Source: Acrasis kona (lineage: Eukaryota; Heterolobosea; Eutetramitea; Acrasida; Acrasidae). Taken from it: a stretch of 64,000 nt of DNA. Below, one piece after another: positions 38,615 to 60,100 of the stretch. The DNA lies in the NCBI GenBank assembly GCA_026419775.2, contig JAOPGA020001632.1:1-64000 (forward strand), read 5' to 3'. The first letter of the stretch is position 1; the number at the start of each line of letters is the position of its first letter. The notes under the pieces were generated by a model. The model was given only the letters and a program-made list of their open reading frames with translations. It was not told where the DNA came from and did not search any database. Made by a program: the position numbers and the translations under genes.

Positions 38615-39112
38615 ATGTCAGACGAAGCCAAGAAGACAGTTAAGCTAACCAGCAGAGACAAGCAGGTTTTTGAGGTAGAGCGCGAGATTATCCAAATGTC
38701 AGGATTGGTTAGAGATATGTTGGAGGAAGGCGACGAAGATGATGTACCAACTATTCCAGTCCCAAATGTTGACTCAAAGCCATTGGAAAGAGTAATTGAG
38801 TACTGTAAACATCACCACAAGAATCCAGCTGAAGAAATAGAAAAACCATTGAAGGGGAAAATTGAGGACGTGATTAGTGAGTGGGATAAAAAATTCTTAG
38901 AGATCGAACAAAGCTTACTAATTGAGCTTATCATGGCTGCCAATTACTTAAATATCAAAGATCTATTAGACTTAACATGCGCTAAAGTTGCGTCCATGAT
39001 GAAGGGAAAGAGCCCTGAACAAATCAGAGAAATGTTCGGTATTGAAAATGATTTCACCCCAGAAGAAGAGGCAAAAATAAGAGACGAGAACAGGTGGTGC
39101 GAGGAGGCCTAA
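38615..39112 (+). CDS. SKP1: SKP1, core subunit of SCF ubiquitin ligases
   Basis: 165 residues, single exon. The ATG at 38615 (preceded by a run of A) is chosen over an in-frame upstream TTG. It matches the family end to end: KLTSRDKQVFEVEREI with the POZ fold, then VIEYCKHHH, ELIMAANYLNIKDLLDLTC, and the C-terminal F-box binding end (EQIREMFGIENDFTPEEE, RDENRWCEE). SKP1 links F-box proteins to cullin-1. An F-box protein with an attached Rho GTPase is encoded about 8 kb away. Confidence 0.96.
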   Translation: MSDEAKKTVKLTSRDKQVFEVEREIIQMSGLVRDMLEEGDEDDVPTIPVPNVDSKPLERVIEYCKHHHKNPAEEIEKPLKGKIEDVISEWDKKFLEIEQSLLIELIMAANYLNIKDLLDLTCAKVASMMKGKSPEQIREMFGIENDFTPEEEAKIRDENRWCEEA

Positions 39113-44646: not shown

Positions 44647-46568
44647 ATGGCAAGCAAAAGAGTGTTTTATACTGACGAACAATATCATGCAAGACCTCCC
44701 AACGCTAATGATCACGTTTCAATACTACAACAACAATTATTCGACACGCAAAAGAAACATCAGCAAGATGACATGGAGCTAATGTCCCTTCAGCGCGAAA
44801 TCCGCGAAAAGAACAAGGAATATAGAACGATACAGCTTAAATATGACCAACTAAAAAATGCATTTCAACAAGTAAAGGAAAATCAAGCAACAATACTGTC
44901 GCATCTAGAGGATTTAAAGAATGAAATAGAGGAGGTAAGTATAATGACGTTGAACGTAACCAACCTGCACACAGGAAAGGTCCAAGAATGTAGAATTAAG
45001 CGACCAGCTACAGTTGGCCCAGGTCGAGAATGCTAAAATACACGATGTAAGGCAATGATTTGTACTCTTATCATTCTTTAGGCGAAAATCAAAAATGAAG
45101 AGCAGCAAAAGGAAATTGTTCTGTTGAAGGAGGTCAAAAAGAGTCTCGAGAAGGCTTTGATGGACGACAAAAAGTCATCCGATTCAAGAACAGTCAAGAA
45201 GTACGAGCAACAAATTGAGATCCTGAACGAAGAGATCAGAAAATGGAACGAAACAAGTAAGAAGCAATATTCTGAAAATAAACAGGTCTCCACAAAATTA
45301 CAAGTGGCCAACAGTAATCATTTCGACCGATGAAATCACTAACCTTTTCAGCTAGGATTGAAGCTCTCATCAAGGAAAATAACGACACCAAAAGTCAGTC
45401 ACTTTTACATGAGGAGAGGGTTAGAAAGTTGGAAAAACAGATTGAAATGTCCAACCTCATGATGGAGTCGGTCAAGAAGAAGAAGGAGCTGAAGCACACC
45501 ACGGATCAATTCACACAGACCGACCGCGTGATTGAAAAAGTGAAAGAACAGCAAGCGCCGCCACCTCGTCAAGAAGTAGAGCGTAAAATCGTACCAAAGC
45601 CATCAACGGCCGCTACCGTGGAGAAGAAATTAGAGCCAAAAAGCAAGTTTGCATTAAAGTCTGATGTACATTTTTTACAAGATAAAAATATATGTGAAGT
45701 AACAATAGATACGCTGGTACTGAAGAGTGACTTTGTGTCTCAAAATAATTTAGCGCCTTTATTCTTTAGTGTTGATTTCTTCGAACATGACACTCAAGCA
45801 ACCATCATTGTGGAACCCAACCTGAATCATAATAATTTCTCTTCGGCTCCCAGTATAAGGTTTGGAAACGCTTTAAGGTTTGAAGTGGTTATGAATGAAA
45901 TGTTCTTGTATTATTTGCAGAACGGAGAGTTGTTGTTAGAGTTGAACGTCACCAGGGGACAGGATTTTGATGTGGTTGGGAGATCGTCGATACCTCTCAC
46001 GGATCTTGTAACACAAGAACAACCAATAAAAGCGTTTGCTGTTGTGGTCAGTTCAAAGAATGAAAATGTTGTGATTGGCACTGTAAATTATCTTATATCC
46101 ATGGATGTTCCTATTCTAAAATGTGTAAAACAAGACAAATCGGCTTTGAATAAATTTTTGAAGTTGCTGTCTGCAAATCATAAAAAGAATGATGATGTCG
46201 AAGTTCATCAAACTGTTATTAGACTTTTGTTTTGTAATCAAGTCCCAACTAAGAAGAGTGGATCAACCGTCAGTGTACACTATAAATTTTACACATTTAG
46301 TACATATAAAACTAAGTTTGTACATCTAGGAGAGCATGGCGATGCTAAGATTAATGATGAACAAGTATTCCCTGTCGATAATGACTTTGAGTTTAAACAA
46401 TACTTGAGGAAATCAAATCTTGATGTGTTATTGGTTGATCAGTCCAGTAATATCCTTGGGGAGGCATGTATTCCGCTAAGAGATTTACTAAGTACTAATG
46501 CTGTAATTGGTGTGTACAAACTATCAAGTGGAGGGGAAATTAAGATTGAAATTGAAAAATCAAAATAA
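44647..46568 (+). CDS. Coiled-coil/C2 protein, RPGRIP1-like
   Basis: Exons 44647-44934, 44975-45046, 45082-45313 and 45352-46568, with introns of 35-40 bp; 602 residues. The ATG at 44647 is used because the frame's earlier TTG is unlikely. The first ~250 residues are continuous coiled coil (LMSLQREIREKNKEY and so on). A C2 domain of the RPGRIP1/RPGRIP1L type follows (LAPLFFSVDFFEHDTQAT, FVVMNEM-like strand, LLLELNVTRGQDFDVVG), and a second C2-like region lies at the C-terminus (TVSVHYKFYTFST to the end). RPGRIP1L is a scaffold of the ciliary transition zone, so a basal-body/flagellar role is likely in a cell that can form flagella. Confidence 0.83.
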
Positions 46569-46610
46569 AATTAATTAGTGTTTAAGTGATTTTAGTTTCA
46601 TATCTTAACC

Positions 46611-46628
46611 TTGGAGTGATCACTCCAA
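46611..46628. repeat. 18-bp perfect palindrome
   Basis: TTGGAGTGATCACTCCAA is a perfect inverted repeat with no spacer. It lies 43 bp after the RPGRIP1-like stop codon and 213 bp before the ATG of the dioxygenase/F-box/Rho gene. It could be a dimeric transcription-factor site or part of a 3' hairpin. Nothing else notable is seen in 46569-46841. Confidence 0.7.
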
Positions 46629-46841
46629 CATGCGACCATATGGGCCGCAAAAGTAAAGTACAGGCAAGTTAAAGGTTGAGGGATAATGTGGGTTGCAACA
46701 GCATAGTTAATAAAATTTAAAAATTCATTTCAGATCTCTTTGAAAATATTACAGTTACCGTAAAAACCTTGATAATTTGACAACTGTAACTGAAAAAAAA
46801 TATTTTGTAAGTGAAGTTCTAGACAGTTCAAACAACACAAC

Positions 46842-48441
46842 ATGTTTTACGTTCTAGAAGATGAAGACGTACAAGATGTCTTATCCAAATGCCTGTGCTT
46901 TAAAGAACAAATAAAAAAATTCTTCTCTCTTGACATCACTGATAAACAAAGGACCAGTAGCACAGAGAATGATAGCGGGTATACTAATAACGACATCAAG
47001 CAACAATTTCAAATTCGAATCAATAAAACCGAGTTTTATGATGACGACCTTAGCCAATTAGGACTTGCCGCATTCTCATCTTGCTTTTCATACTGCAGAC
47101 AATTTCTAATCGACTGGATTCAAAATCATCAAAATAAAGCAAACGTCACCATCACAACCTACCTAATGGACGCGCTGAATAAATTGACAGACCCCACCTT
47201 TTCGGTACTCATAGCAACAGAGTACTATAGCCACAGTGACGCTACAGATTACTGCCCAGCTCATTTAGACAGTGGATTAATCACATTATGTGTGTCCCCG
47301 GAAGAGGGCCTCCAATTGTATAGTGAAGAGAACCAAGCGTGGTTGAACGTTAATGGTCCTAATAAATTAATTTTACTTTTTGGTGAATCTCTCCAACAAA
47401 TAACAGATGGTGTTGCTCGTGCTAATCTTCACAAAGTTTCTAAAACATCAGTCAACAGGTTCTCTCTTGTTTTCAAATTTAGAATGGACCCAGCCATTCT
47501 CAGTCCTCGCAATCTCTCCGATTATCAAGCCATCCTAGAAGGAGAGCAAAGAAGTGTATATAATCATGTCGACGAATCAAAGATGCCGGTTGACGTGCTA
47601 GAGATGGTTTTCTTGTTCCTTCCTTACAATAGTATTTGTACTTGCGAGTTGGTCTCGAAGCACTGGAAAAAAGTGGCTTGTTCGAATTATATATGGAGGG
47701 AGCAATATAAAATGTATTATGGAAAAAATGATGTGATAGTTATATCATGGAAAGATCTTTTTATTAATAAAGTTTGCACGAAACCAAAAGATGAACTCCT
47801 CCACTCACTGTCTAAATGTGTGTTTGGTTCAACAGAGGTCAATCTCAAACTTGTGGTTGTTGGTGACGGTGCAGTTGGAAAGACCTGCCTAATTATTGTG
47901 TACGCCTCCAAAAAATTTCCGACGACTTACATGCCGACTGTATTTGATGCGTTCACAACTAGAACCAAAATTGATGATGCTTCTGTGTATTTCGCATTGT
48001 GGGATACTGCAGGTATGTTGAATTCAAATTGTTCAAAAATTTACAACAAATGTAGGTCAAGATGATTACGATCAATTAAGACCCTTCTTATACCCTGAGA
48101 CTAATGTATTTTTGATTTTGTTTTCTGTGGATAATAGGGCCTCCTTTAAAAATGTGAAGACAAAGTGGATGCCCGAACTCAAGAATTATAGCGCAACCCC
48201 CATGATTCTTGTCGGAACTAAAATAGATAAAAGAGAAACCGAGGATTGTGTAATGTTTAAGGAGGGTTTGGAAATGGCGAAGGACATTGGAGCGTTTGGA
48301 TATTTTGAAATATCAAGCTTGAACTTGGCAGGTGTAGAACGTCTGTTTGACTGTGCTGCAAGAGTAGGATTGCACCACTCCATGAAAATTCCTTTCTATG
48401 CATCTGTAAAATCCAAAAAGAAGAAATGTACAGTACAATAA
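46842..48441 (+). CDS. 2OG-Fe(II) dioxygenase-like / F-box / Rho GTPase fusion protein
   Basis: Exons 46842-48012 and 48056-48441; 518 residues. Residues ~1-230 resemble isopenicillin-N-synthase-type 2-oxoglutarate dioxygenases: iron ligands H141 and D143 (PAHLDSG), distal H197 (ANLHKVS), and R206 in NRFSLVF as the 2OG-binding Arg. An F-box follows at ~248-290 (MPVDVLEMVFLFLPYNSIC, then the Trp in HWKKVACSNYIWREQY). Residues ~335-518 form a Rho-family GTPase: P-loop GDGAVGKT (341-348), MPTVFDAF effector loop, WDTAGQDDYDQLRP with Gln392, VGTKID. The Rho insert helix looks shortened, and G5 reads ISSLN where SAL is usual. The end is polybasic plus CTVQ, a CAAX prenylation box. The intron lies inside the GTPase, so all three parts are one transcript. 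Function: perhaps a membrane-tethered SCF adaptor under GTPase control (inference). Confidence 0.92.
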
Positions 48442-50333: not shown

Positions 50334-53300
50334 CTACGAATTTATAATTTTATTCAAAATGCGGATAGGAGTGAAGGGCATATAATTCATCAACTCTCGT
50401 GCACTTTTTACTTTGCCCAAAAGTTCAACGTCAGGGACATTGTAATAGTTTAGGAACAACATCAAGTCCTTGTCAATCTTTCTATGATTTAGATATTCTT
50501 TTCGTTTCCACTTTGTGTCTATTTCCCTCTCTATTTTCAATATCAACGGCTCGATTACAGTACAACTAAAGAGTCGGTCATGTTTATTTCTATCAAGATA
50601 TTTATAATAAGTGCTGATCAGTCTGACATTTAGAATATCACATAGTCTCATGGTTTCAGATGTGGAAACTGGAAGTAAATTGACCACATCTTTATCTAAA
50701 TCAACACCTAGAGCCCTCTTCTTTACTTTTATTAATCGACAGTTCAAATTGTTTACAGAGATGTTATAATACATTGGATCAATAACATTTATGGATTCAA
50801 ATATCTCTGGTAGTAAGCAAGGAGCAGTTCTAACCAACACTTCACAATCAGTCACAATCTCCACCTTGACTTTTAGTATTTCGTTGGTGGTCACGTCCCT
50901 GGTTTCTAACAATCTGGGTTCAGATGCCAATGCATAAAGATGTCGCACTGCTTGTAAGTGGTACTTGTTGTCATTACTATTCATTGGGAAGCGAGGATAC
51001 AAGGACATTACAAGATAAGCAATGCTGTCGTTAGTGGTCTTTAGACTACAACGACCGCTACCTAAGAACGTTAAGCCAATAGACATACTCAAGGACATGT
51101 GGAAACCATAACCAAGATCTTCTTGCTCTGATCCATGCATAAACTTTTGGCGTGCCTTGTTGATGGTTTCAACCAAGTCAGCGTCACCAGAACCACTCAA
51201 GATACAACTTTGAGACAAGATACAAATCAACAATGCTTGGTCACACAAGGACCTCGGTAAAGGATTGTTTTTTATTGTTTTATATTGTTCAAATAAATTA
51301 GAAAAGTGTCTAACCAGTTTTGTTGCTCTTTCACTCTGACTTCCTGCGTACCTGAAACCCAAAGACAAACAACAACCACAAATAATATTAATATAAATAG
51401 ATTGCAGGTGATCCAAGATATCTTCATTGTCGCTAATTTCGCTTCGGTTCAGATCAGGACAAACAGCAGACATGACTAGATCTGGAACCTGGTCAACCAC
51501 CCAATCAATTGTTGGACAGATATTATCCCACATGATTAAATTATAACCCAACACCCTCAACAACGCCATCAAAGGCCTAGTATAGGAAAGAAGATATTTC
51601 GTGTTAGAGATGGAAAACTTGCTAGCAACCATATTATTCATTGTTTTTAAATAAGTCAACATCAAAGCAACACATGCACCAGGTCCAGTCACATCAACAT
51701 TAACAAGTTTTTCGGACTCTTGTATTTTTGGATTATCTTTATTAGAAGGATGCGAAAATTCACCCTCAAGTCTTCCACCGCCCAACATGTACCTTAAAAG
51801 CTTCACATTAAGTTCCGGCAGACCAGGCGGCGCCCCATGCTTCGTACCTCTGGACAAATTAGTCAAGCCTATACCCATTCCCGCACACAAAGAATAACAT
51901 TCCCTCATGGAAGCGTCGCCCATGGATATTTTTGTCATTTCACACATTAACACTTCGGTAATAAAACTACTAGCACTGGACTGGAACAACAAACCCAAAC
52001 CAACAAAAGCAGCACAAGAAAAAGTAATAGGAATGTCTAAATTATTATCAAGAACTAATGAAGGAACATGTAAAGTTAAAGATCTTGTAATGTAAGAATC
52101 TTCTGTTGATCTTCTTGTACAGCTCAAACCAATCATGATGGCCACACTTGTTTGCTCATGTTTTTGTTGTAAATAACTAAAAACTTCCGTCTGCGATAAA
52201 ATCAACCAACCTTGAATTCCGATGGCCAATAACAATCCAGCATGTTCTCCGCAGGGTTTCTTGGACCTGTTATACAATATCCAGTCGCTCGTGAGGAGGT
52301 TCTTGTTCAACGCCATACCAGCCGCAACTCCATTGTGAAATTCACACCAGGGTTGTTCCGTGAAATCATGTCCGACACCTTGTGAGAGCTGCACTTGGAC
52401 CCATGAATTGTGTGGATTGAAAACATTACTCAGATCAATGTGAATGAAACCACGACCTCTTTTTAGACGGGTGGAGAGAGCGACCGGCTTGATTAGCAAT
52501 CTATCGGTGGGTTGCATGTATTCGGTGGCCATTGTTAACATTCCTCTTCCGATGGGCAGGGATAGTAACTTTAACTTTAATTTGTGTAGAATGGATTGTT
52601 GTTCTGGATTGGCTTCAGAGTCGGTTGGATCGAAACTTCCTACTTGATCCTCGCTCATGTTGAGTGTTTGTCTCTTGATGGTAATGGGCTCTGACGTGTC
52701 CAATTGTTGACGTGCTAATGTTAACCGATCGTCGTCGAACAGTAAATTGATTAATGTTTTTGTTTTTGTGGATTGTTTCAAAGTGTCGTCTTGTTGTGGA
52801 AGTTCCGAATCAATGTGATATAAATTGGTCTTGACACCTAGTGAGTGGGATTCCTTTTCCAAGAGATCTTGACGCGAAAGTAACTTCATCACTTGTATCT
52901 TTTGATCGGCTTCCACATGATCCAACTATTCATGGTTAGCATTTAAAAGTATGTGTGACGAACTGGTGGAATGTTTCTGCACTTGGCAATGGTTTCTCTT
53001 AATGGAATGGTAACTCCGAATGGAGTGTGGCTGAGATCATTGACCGAATGTATTCCTTCCTGGATCATTGCAACAATGACCAATTGTTCTGGACTTGGTC
53101 TTCTATTTTCAAAATCACTTGCTTTCAACGAATAAACATCATTTTTCTAATCAATGATTAATTAACGGTTAAAAATGAACACACAAACCTTTCCGCTTAG
53201 GAGCCAGTAGAATCTGCAGATTATTCTAGAGTCATTACACCTTCCCATAATGATTGGGAATTGTTCAATGTGTTCAAAGATCATGACCTCATGTAACCAC

Positions 53301-57106: not shown

Positions 57107-60100
57107 TCAATTTTTAAAGATATCTTGTCTGATGCGATAAGCACATGCATGCATAGCCTCTGGTAATTCTAGTCTAGAAAAGAATTTACAAATTTCTTCT
57201 ACTTGTTGAGCCTCTTGAAAGGTCCATTGAATGACGTCAGCCATTTTGACAACCTCTTTTAATTTAACTAGGTCCACGCCACGCGGTAGTTTCTTTTTCA
57301 GAGTTTTCAATTCCATGATCATGGAGTCCATATTGGGCCACACGTGGCTACTACCATTGGATTGCTCTGATTGCAATTTGGCTGCATTTATATATTCTCT
57401 GAATTTTTGGTAGTGATGACGCAATAGACCATATACTTGTGAGTAATTGATATTTGTAGGTATCAAATCACGAGCGGTTTCTTGCGAACCGTCATTCACT
57501 GTATTTTGACCATTACCAATTTTTACTGTAATGATGGGGAGGATTTCTTGAGGTACACTCATGTTTCTAAAGTAATCATCTCTAGAACGTCTTTGACAAC
57601 GAGCCAAGTCCTCTTTGGAAGGTGTTGGAGGTGGAATAGGAATAGATTGTTGCTGCGACGATGTTTCATCGCCTGGTGAAGAATGATTTATTTTATTAAA
57701 TAGTATTGCTCTTACTTCTCTATCTATATCCAGAATCTCTCTTTGTAGTTTCGCCTCTTCATCACTAAGTTTACCTGTCACTGTTTGCTTGAGCTCAGCA
57801 ATGGTGGTGTGCAACAAATCTCTGCTGTGCATGGCTCTATGCGCATCATAGGGTTTGAATGCATAGAAGGGAATCAAAATACCAACAATGTTCATAATCA
57901 AGTTTAGATAGTGAATACCAGTTAACACAATAGCAATAAACAAGTAATTATATAACCATGAGTAAGTCACTGTGTAAATGTAGTGAATGAAGCGTAAAAT
58001 GGAAATTACAATAAAGCGAATGGTTTCAAATAATTCTTGACACCCTTGATTACGTCTACGCTTTCTTCTTACAGGTTGTTCTTCATCATCGTCTGGACTC
58101 AACGACAAATCCCACACCTTTGAGCCCCTGTGACCAAAATTACTACCACCTTGGTTATTGTCTAATGTACTTTCGTACTTTTCTCTGTCCTTTTCTCTCA
58201 TTAAACGTAACATGCCAAATTTATGAACAAATGCCCAATTCTCCGCACTTAATAACTTCCATGTCTTATTACCAACTTGACTAGAAAAGCTACCTCTGTT
58301 GAATATGAATGGACTCCACATCCAAACTGCAATCAAAATAAAGTTGACTAGAAAGGCTTGCCAGCTGCGACGCAACGCCAAAACTATAATTAACATAATG
58401 AGCAAGTGGAGACAAGTTCGGAAGTGAGTTCTATAGTATCGATTAAAGATGGTTTGAATGTCTTTGTGCTTTAGACCTGGCGTTCTGCCAGAAGCCAAGT
58501 ACATGGGTATATTTGTAAAACTAGCGTGGAAGTAGTAGGCTGTGTTTAACAAGTGGAAAGCACTGAATATAGTTTGTAACAAGAACTTCATATATACCAC
58601 ATAAATGATCACGCCAGCCATCCCAGAATCGATAAAGGATTGGAAGAACCCAGGAACACTAAGCGCTACTCCTAGTTGTAACCAAAAGTAGGAATCTGCT
58701 TGACCGTACACTCCATCAAAGCTATTACTGGACACTCCATAGTAGCTCATGACGATACTAAGAATGGAAATGACGATTCGAATCACACTCAATGTATAAC
58801 AACTAAAAACAACAAGAATAGCAGAAAAATAATGACCTATAGTGGTCTGAAATATACTTAATTGTTTAAATGGATTATAAAGTAATGGAGTCATCAATTG
58901 TTGTACTTGTCTAGAATTACCAACATGCCTTGCACCTCCTGCAATTTTGCTCATGAATGCACTGGTGGTATCAATGCACACATCTCTGGCCTTACCAATT
59001 TCATAGTAATCAGCATATACTATGGAACCTCCCTGCAACAAGACGTCCATACCAAAAAAGACGTCTTCGCTTATATAATCTAAATTGCTCATGCCCGATT
59101 CGAACATGACGCATGTAGATCTGATAAAGTCGGGATGACCGTAATGCATTCGAACACCCAACATGGTCCAACTCTTTTGCATGATGGAACCAAATACTTT
59201 TTCGGTATAACCTGCACCGAACGCAGCGGCACTCCAATCAGTAGTGGTCACATATTCTTTGAAACCAACTACTTTGATATTGGGATCCTTACCAAATTCT
59301 TCAACAATACAAGGAAGAAAGGATGCTTGACTAGCGTTCATGTCTTGGTTACAATCGACAGCTTCGTTGACGCTGGCATCAAAAAATTGTAACAAGAAAC
59401 TTTGGTGAGATGGTTTTCCTTGGCCGCAGATTAAATCGCCATAGCTCTCTACGATTAATGCATCTCTGCCTACTTGTCTACCCATGCATTTTGTTCGTAG
59501 AACACCTTGACACACTTTGACACCATCGATATCAACTGTTCGTTGATAAGCGAATTGGACATTTTTGGAAGAGAAGGATTCAAACAAGTAATCTGCGTCT
59601 TTTCTGTATTGATCATATTGGGGATCCATTTTAGAATAAACTTGAGTCCCCATCGTAAACCTAAATTTACGTTGTAACAGGAATTCAATTTCTTTTATTG
59701 CTTCTTCATCTTTAATATCAAGATCATAAATGTCATGTGAATTTTGTAAAATACACAACGTGCGAAGGGTGTTGTAAATCTTACTTGCACCTTTCACACA
59801 CCTGCAAACATATTGAAATTTATTACTTGCCCAGAATCTGAGCTCTATGCGTAAGTCCGAGTCCTCCGTTTTTGACAATAACGAATGGTCGATGTCTCTT
59901 TGCTTACCCTTGACAGCGTCCTCTACTCTCATCAACTTTTCTTTATCGGCCTCAGGTCGGCCTGGTTTTTCAATAAAGTTATTCCATTCTACTGGATATT
60001 TCGTGATGACGTGCTCAAGATAACTCATATTGGTATTTTCTATAAGAACAATGTTGGCGAATGATTCAATAAGAGTTTCGTTGTATACGGGCACGGTAAT

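Follow-up and report, generated by a model that had tools for sequence, protein, structure and literature searches.

An Acrasis kona gene that joins an oxygenase domain to an F-box and a Rac-like GTPase in one frame

The frame at 46842-48441 of a 64,000-nucleotide stretch of Acrasis kona DNA (hereafter the window; contig JAOPGA020001632.1, here C849, of the 37.35-Mb assembly) raised the question of whether a single protein truly joins three domains, and if so, what such a protein might do. An earlier note, made from the sequence alone, had proposed that this frame encodes a dioxygenase-like domain, an F-box and a prenylatable Rho GTPase. The fusion gene was confirmed, with its frame and the residues named in that note, and the three-domain product was upheld by Pfam matches, by a second, uninterrupted copy on contig C230 of the same genome and by recurrence in environmental proteins. 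The six proteins that carry all three domains (the window protein, the C230 copy and the environmental proteins P0003, P0005, P0121 and P0122) are referred to below as the trio proteins.

The fusion gene and its domains

Translation of 46842-48441 across a single 43-bp intron inside the GTPase region gave the expected product of 518 residues, in which H141, D143, H197, R206, Q392 and the CTVQ end were all found. The intron length fits the 9-95 bp range given for A. kona introns in excerpts of the genome paper, which also describe the published gene models as transcriptome-supported and hand-curated (PMC11589745). A 518-residue NCBI entry, 'Ras-related protein [Acrasis kona]', was the same product (100% identity over residues 1-320 and 236-518, the segments searched), in keeping with the proposed heterolobosean origin. 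That two adjacent genes or a mis-predicted read-through pose as one protein is most improbable. The 507-codon copy, which has no intron, and the environmental trios were the grounds for dismissing such an artefact; furthermore, the frame is continuous across the junction, the domain order is repeated in P0003, P0005, P0121 and P0122, W303-K304 downstream of the F-box is invariant in all six trio proteins and the curated annotation, as described in the methods of the genome paper (PMC11589745), yields the same 518 residues.

One of the checks suggested in the earlier note was a profile search, and both the dioxygenase and the F-box scored above the curated Pfam cut-offs. The oxygenase matched 2OG-FeII_Oxy (PF03171; 3.6e-9, residues 125-213, 37.3 bits against a cut-off of 23), the F-box matched F-box-like (PF12937; 5.4e-10, 39.3 bits against 24.3) and F-box (PF00646; 1.7e-8), and the GTPase matched Ras (PF00071; 5e-44). 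The PF03171 cut-off was also passed by the five other trio proteins, two of them narrowly. Neither JmjC nor BTB matches were listed for the window protein in Pfam searches with E up to 5 (HMMER filters remove most matches above about 0.1), and none were listed for WD40, LRR or kelch; the GTPase extends to the CAAX tail. The order of the fusion stood as first proposed, whereas the extents were revised: the modelled oxygenase domain (residues 1-221) exceeds the HxD..H core, and the F-box match covers residues 247-289.

AlphaFold2 modelling with six trio-type rows and 20 bacterial 2-oxoglutarate (2OG) oxygenases resolved the 2OG-oxygenase beta-helix, and the modelled domain had the double-stranded beta-helix fold; in this model the predicted local distance difference test score (pLDDT) of the F-box was below 50. 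With 22 mixed rows, most of the oxygenase had a pLDDT below 50, and the F-box reached 69-81 in ten-residue blocks from 251 to 290, with 54 in 241-250. The bacterial comparison set came from a DNA-pattern scan that gave at least 119 loci. The 80 listed loci L034-L113 were examined; 76 of these were within length limits, thinning at 60% identity reduced them to 22, and 20 were aligned (L047 and L073 were left out). All 20 had the H-x-D motif, but they had been chosen by a DNA pattern encoding H-T-D, so this count is no independent test. The distal His and R-x-S, which are absent from the selection pattern, were present in all six trio proteins and in 26 of 26 rows when the bacterial sequences were included. 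The spacing from the Asp to the distal His was 54 in the window protein, the C230 copy and P0003, and 62 in P0005, P0121 and P0122. When a profile of four oxygenase-F-box parts was compared with PDB sequences, the oxygenase side matched 1-aminocyclopropane-1-carboxylate (ACC) oxidase, other 2OG oxygenases and 3on7, and the F-box side matched the F-boxes of FBXW11, beta-TrCP (FBXW1A) and KDM2A.

The best PDB sequence match of the GTPase was Rac1 (2.4e-51), and Foldseek placed its AlphaFold2 model with RhoA/Rac. The G motifs were intact (GDGAVGKT, PTVF, WDTAGQ and TKID). The Rho insert helix is missing, the alignment with Rac1 being gapped there over 11 residues; the domain is thus called Rac-like rather than a typical Rho protein. 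The C-terminal CAAX motif predicts prenylation. The earlier description of this part as a GTP-controlled membrane anchor fits only in part, since the lipid of a CAAX tail would keep the protein at the membrane in any nucleotide state and GTP would instead govern the choice of partners.

Duplication, recurrence and constraint

The C230 copy (57858-59378) is an uninterrupted, intronless frame of 507 codons with all three Pfam domains, and hence the fusion is no splicing artefact. Its product was 86% identical to the window protein over residues 1-391. Piecewise DNA similarity stretched from about 45840 to 48394 of the window and reached upstream into the next gene, and the copy looks like the result of DNA duplication. 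A retrocopy, which the missing intron might suggest, was not favoured, given this upstream similarity; the intron region itself has diverged patchily. An allele was thought unlikely at a synonymous divergence (dS) of about 0.2. By the Nei-Gojobori method, comparison of the two copies gave a dS of 0.199 and a nonsynonymous divergence (dN) of 0.042 for the oxygenase (residues 1-232; ratio 0.21), a dN/dS of 0.10 for the linker and F-box (233-325) and a ratio of 1.04 for the GTPase (326-518), in which segment 348-412 was only 41% identical. These ratios indicate constraint on the oxygenase and the F-box since the two A. kona copies parted, and drift in the C230 GTPase. One DNA alignment contained no clean shift of the kind that a compensated frameshift behind the diverged C230 switch region would leave. 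On C952, an incomplete piece that is truncated where the contig begins resembles the C230 GTPase, and P0002 (422 residues, NCBI 'Rac-domain protein') represents a C230-type copy in a shorter record. The upstream gene (45330-46568), whose 3' part falls inside the duplication common to C230, matched the RPGR-interacting protein 1 first C2 domain (PF11618, 3.1e-22) and the C2CD3 C2 domain (PF25339, 2e-10).

The constraint on the F-box bears on one rival explanation, namely that the protein is an isopenicillin N synthase (IPNS)-like small-molecule oxygenase that the GTPase tail targets to the membrane, with its product, rather than protein hydroxylation, as the output. In keeping with this explanation, the solved structures closest in sequence and fold (ACC oxidase, TraH, ethylene-forming enzyme, TropC, 3on7 and 3oox) bear titles that name either small-molecule enzymes or uncharacterised proteins. 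However, an F-box that is present in six of six trio proteins and conserved together with its linker would be needless for a plain metabolic enzyme, and we regard this explanation as quite unlikely.

Searching with residues 236-518 gave 144 matches. Among the best 120, eight carried an F-box label in precomputed annotations, and four of these were also labelled as oxygenases: the two A. kona proteins, P0003 (ENA, 391 residues, starting inside the oxygenase) and P0005 (JGI, 571 residues). The oxygenase-F-box profile search gave five matches, of which P0121 (546 residues) and P0122 (558 residues) were new. All four environmental proteins had the three domains above the Pfam cut-offs and in the same order as in the window, at 31-48% identity to the window protein. 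The trio is apparently also carried by other protists, which are known from environmental sequences alone. No Naegleria-named rows were among the listed matches of either search, which is weak evidence of absence given the word-based choice of candidates and the length limits. HxD, the P-loop and WDxAG were found in all six trio proteins; PTVF, the Gln61 equivalent, the G4 motif [NT]KxD and the Cys at the CAAX position were each found in five.

A catalytically dead oxygenase, which would instead sense O2, iron or a metabolite or offer a platform for protein binding, was also considered. The N-x-Y-P motif of plant enzymes is a cosubstrate motif with Asn at its first position. The A. kona proteins have Glu at this position, and their N terminus is shorter than in the aligned bacterial domains, as might be expected of a domain that has lost activity. 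However, the other full-length trios and many bacterial rows have His at the same position, which makes it weak evidence. Furthermore, the Fe ligands and R-x-S are retained in six of six although the oxygenase domains of the A. kona proteins are only 22-28% identical to those of P0005, P0121 and P0122 (P0003: 52% over 89 residues). A dead oxygenase is consequently considered very unlikely.

The GTPase tree was built from 126 proteins with a domain match, of which 122 were kept (P0002 was not among them). The six trio proteins formed one clade with P0006, which pairs an F-box with Rho and has no oxygenase match (bootstrap/Shimodaira-Hasegawa-like approximate likelihood ratio 99/86, with a bootstrap that had not settled, 0.957). 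The best tree placed P0006 within the trio proteins (91/84, not starred as supported); a strict trio clade excluding it was not rejected by the approximately unbiased test (p = 0.267), nor was it shown. The oxygenase would have been gained by, or lost from, an older F-box-Rho fusion. Neither an oxygenase nor an F-box above the Pfam cut-off was found in P0076, which adjoins the clade.

F-box-GTPase proteins, some with kelch repeats, were found in A. kona, Balamuthia, Pelomyxa and environmental sequences. Balamuthia mandrillaris P0107 and environmental P0012 are kelch-F-box-Rho proteins, and Pelomyxa P0106 has the GTPase first. In A. kona, C85 (L019) joins an F-box (59 bits) and a Ras domain (124.7 bits, Rac-like by eye) in one 478-codon frame, both above the cut-off; C504 (L023) likewise has both above it (30.4 and 37.2 bits), with the first GTPase exon only, and C561 (L021) has a sub-threshold F-box joined to a GTPase frame. 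PF03171 matched ten places in the A. kona genome, and among the matches listed only the two trio genes adjoined an F-box and Ras; a contig scan with a stand-alone A. kona 2OG protein found no relatives. As judged by domain matches, this distribution across taxa and these counts mark the F-box-GTPase fusion as recurrent, with the oxygenase as its rare part.

Some further combinations were noted. By eye, C422 (L020) and C586 (L026) have an F-box-like stretch beside the GTPase that was not listed by Pfam in frame, and several A. kona F-box-GTPase genes appeared Ras-like rather than Rho-like. In C488 (L030) and C555 (L031), a single frame runs from kelch repeats into the beginning of a Ras-superfamily GTPase, and P0030, P0086 and P0108 carry precomputed ubiquitin (PF00240) and Ras labels in the same chain.

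Proposed function and comparison with known systems

The architecture, its recurrence and its constraint emerge from the sequence comparisons above, and a combination of sensor or modifier, dock for an SKP1-CUL1-F-box (SCF) ligase and GTP switch is a plausible reading of them. Read as a whole, the fusion would be one membrane-targeted, prenylated Rac-like SCF subunit with its own oxygenase, a proposal that we consider about as likely as not. By analogy with the respective families, the F-box would bind SKP1 and hence CUL1, and the prenylated tail would keep the complex at the membrane. GTP loading would select partners as in other Rho proteins, making effectors or neighbours of active Rho the targets of ubiquitylation. 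With Fe(II), O2 and probably 2-oxoglutarate, the oxygenase would hydroxylate a substrate held by the complex or the SCF itself, and ubiquitylation might thereby come under the control of oxygen or of the metabolic state.

The predicted partner is encoded 7.7 kb upstream in the same window; the earlier assignment of this gene to SKP1 was borne out by Skp1 and Skp1_POZ matches, and its neighbourhood is possibly incidental. Near its C terminus SKP1 has the segment FTPEEE, which we take to resemble the hydroxylated segment of Dictyostelium Skp1. On the strength of this likeness, SKP1 itself is one possible substrate of the fusion oxygenase.

Several observations weigh against the proposal of a joint SCF subunit. 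IPNS and ACC oxidase share R-x-S yet are not known to use 2-oxoglutarate, and for this reason 2-oxoglutarate is a probable, not a proven, cosubstrate of the fusion oxygenase. The C230 GTPase has Ser for the catalytic Gln61, MTPF for PTVF and no CAAX tail; the three parts thus need not act jointly in every copy. Among the environmental proteins, P0121 and P0122 barely exceeded the PF03171 cut-off (28.1 and 24.6 bits), P0122 has no oxygenase domain in its precomputed labels and P0121 has AQTD at G4. In Dictyostelium, the F-box of JcdI was dispensable for its O2 effect, according to parts of PMC9485057, and Toxoplasma FBXO13 has been proposed to be an enzyme that is itself regulated, not a canonical substrate receptor (PMC11570480, in part).

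The proposal for FBXO13 (PMC11570480, in part) resembles the main rival, in which the F-box is a degradation handle: rather than receiving other substrates, the protein would itself be ubiquitylated through SKP1/CUL1 binding, which would set the membrane level of the oxygenase and of active Rho. The auto-ubiquitination described for RhoBTB in passages of PMC4931677 and the lack of listed WD40, LRR or kelch matches in the window protein favour such a handle. No direct counter-evidence was found; however, a handle alone leaves the attached oxygenase unexplained, and some other F-box-Rho proteins (P0012 and P0107) do have kelch, a usual substrate-binding module. We consider it somewhat unlikely.

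A stronger form of the joint-subunit proposal is a ubiquitin ligase receptor gated by O2 or a metabolite within one molecule, in which the oxygenase would hydroxylate proteins captured by GTP-bound Rho and the F-box would pass them to the SCF. This form is unlikely. If true, the PHD/VHL logic of hydroxylase, reader and ligase would be combined with a Rho switch in one polypeptide, as a separate signalling class in some protists.

Both halves of the architecture have precedents. KDM2A, an F-box and JmjC chromatin demethylase, also has an oxygenase and an F-box in one polypeptide, but its oxygenase is of another class and it has no GTPase. P0006, P0012, P0107 and C85 share the order of F-box then Rho-type GTPase in one frame, and P0006 shares the GTPase clade; they differ in lacking an oxygenase match, with a kelch propeller ahead of the F-box in P0012 and P0107 and no other listed Pfam domain there in P0006 and C85. 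RhoBTB likewise joins a Rho-type GTPase to a cullin-ligase adaptor, its CUL3-binding BTB domains (PMC4931677, in part). Those domains come after the GTPase, whereas here an F-box, as predicted SKP1/CUL1 adaptor, precedes a Rac-like GTPase that has Gln61 and ends in a CAAX tail, with an oxygenase added. JcdI/JcdH (Fbxo13) of Dictyostelium and FBXO13 combine a non-heme Fe(II) oxygenase with an F-box; theirs is of the JmjC/JmjD6 type, follows the F-box and comes with no GTPase, whereas here an IPNS/PF03171-type domain precedes the F-box and a GTPase follows. Parts of PMC9485057 report Skp1 binding and O2-dependent activity for JcdI, and O2-dependent conversion of 2-oxoglutarate by a truncated JcdI-Skp1 complex purified from E. 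coli. The PhyA pathway also couples O2 to the SCF through an oxygenase (PMC9485057, in part), but PhyA is a separate prolyl hydroxylase that acts on Skp1 and is fused to neither F-box nor GTPase.

No 2OG-F-box-Rho protein was found in titles or abstract openings, a coverage that takes in neither most subscription journals nor any supplements. The apparent novelty of the trio thus held within the literature searched, with the component pairs already known (F-box-GTPase; JcdI/Fbxo13, in the parts seen of PMC9485057). The main text of the A. kona genome paper contains neither 'F-box' nor 'dioxygenase' (PMC11589745). Naegleria F-box GTPases may already be recorded in the N. fowleri supplement, since excerpts of that genome paper cite F-box and BTB reviews for its small-GTPase supplement (PMC8296547). 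RhoBTB-type and JcdI-type fusions are each known; what appears to be new is a family uniting the two, in a social amoeba that is no close relative of Dictyostelium. One recurring protein would join the regulatory currencies of O2/2-oxoglutarate, GTP and ubiquitin, a compact system for testing the linkage of O2 sensing, the SCF and Rho signalling, in which the A. kona pair, with an intact and a drifted GTPase, offers a natural separation of functions.

Feature coordinates and a neighbouring frame

Positions in the window of the fusion gene, its parts and the predicted partner gene
Feature	Position	Strand	Evidence
SKP1 gene, predicted partner	38615..39112	+	Pfam Skp1 9.5e-29, Skp1_POZ 2.8e-21
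Exon 1, residues 1-390 and first base of codon 391	46842..48012	+	Matches annotated protein
2OG-Fe(II) oxygenase domain, residues 1-222: short N-terminal helical part and eight-stranded double-stranded beta-helix	46842..47507	+	AlphaFold2 model
H141-x-D143, predicted Fe(II) ligands	47262..47270	+	6/6 trio proteins
H197 (predicted third Fe ligand) and R206-x-S208 (putative cosubstrate carboxylate site, IPNS-like type)	47430..47465	+	Trio and bacterial alignment
F-box, residues 247-289	47580..47708	+	Pfam PF12937, PF00646; genome scan
Rac/Rho-type GTPase domain, residues 336-493, split by intron	47847..48363	+	Pfam, PDB match, Foldseek
P-loop GDGAVGKT, residues 341-348	47862..47885	+	Trio alignment
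43-bp intron, GT...AG (GTATGT...TGTAG), within GTPase switch II region	48013..48055	+	
Exon 2, ending at stop codon	48056..48441	+	
CAAX box CTVQ after KSKKKK basic stretch (KSKKKKCTVQ)	48427..48438	+	Cys at -4 in 5/6 trio proteins

Downstream of the fusion gene, an 851-codon frame on the minus strand (50334-52889) had weak, sub-threshold matches to APC1 and to proteasome/cyclosome repeats, and perhaps encodes an APC1-like subunit.
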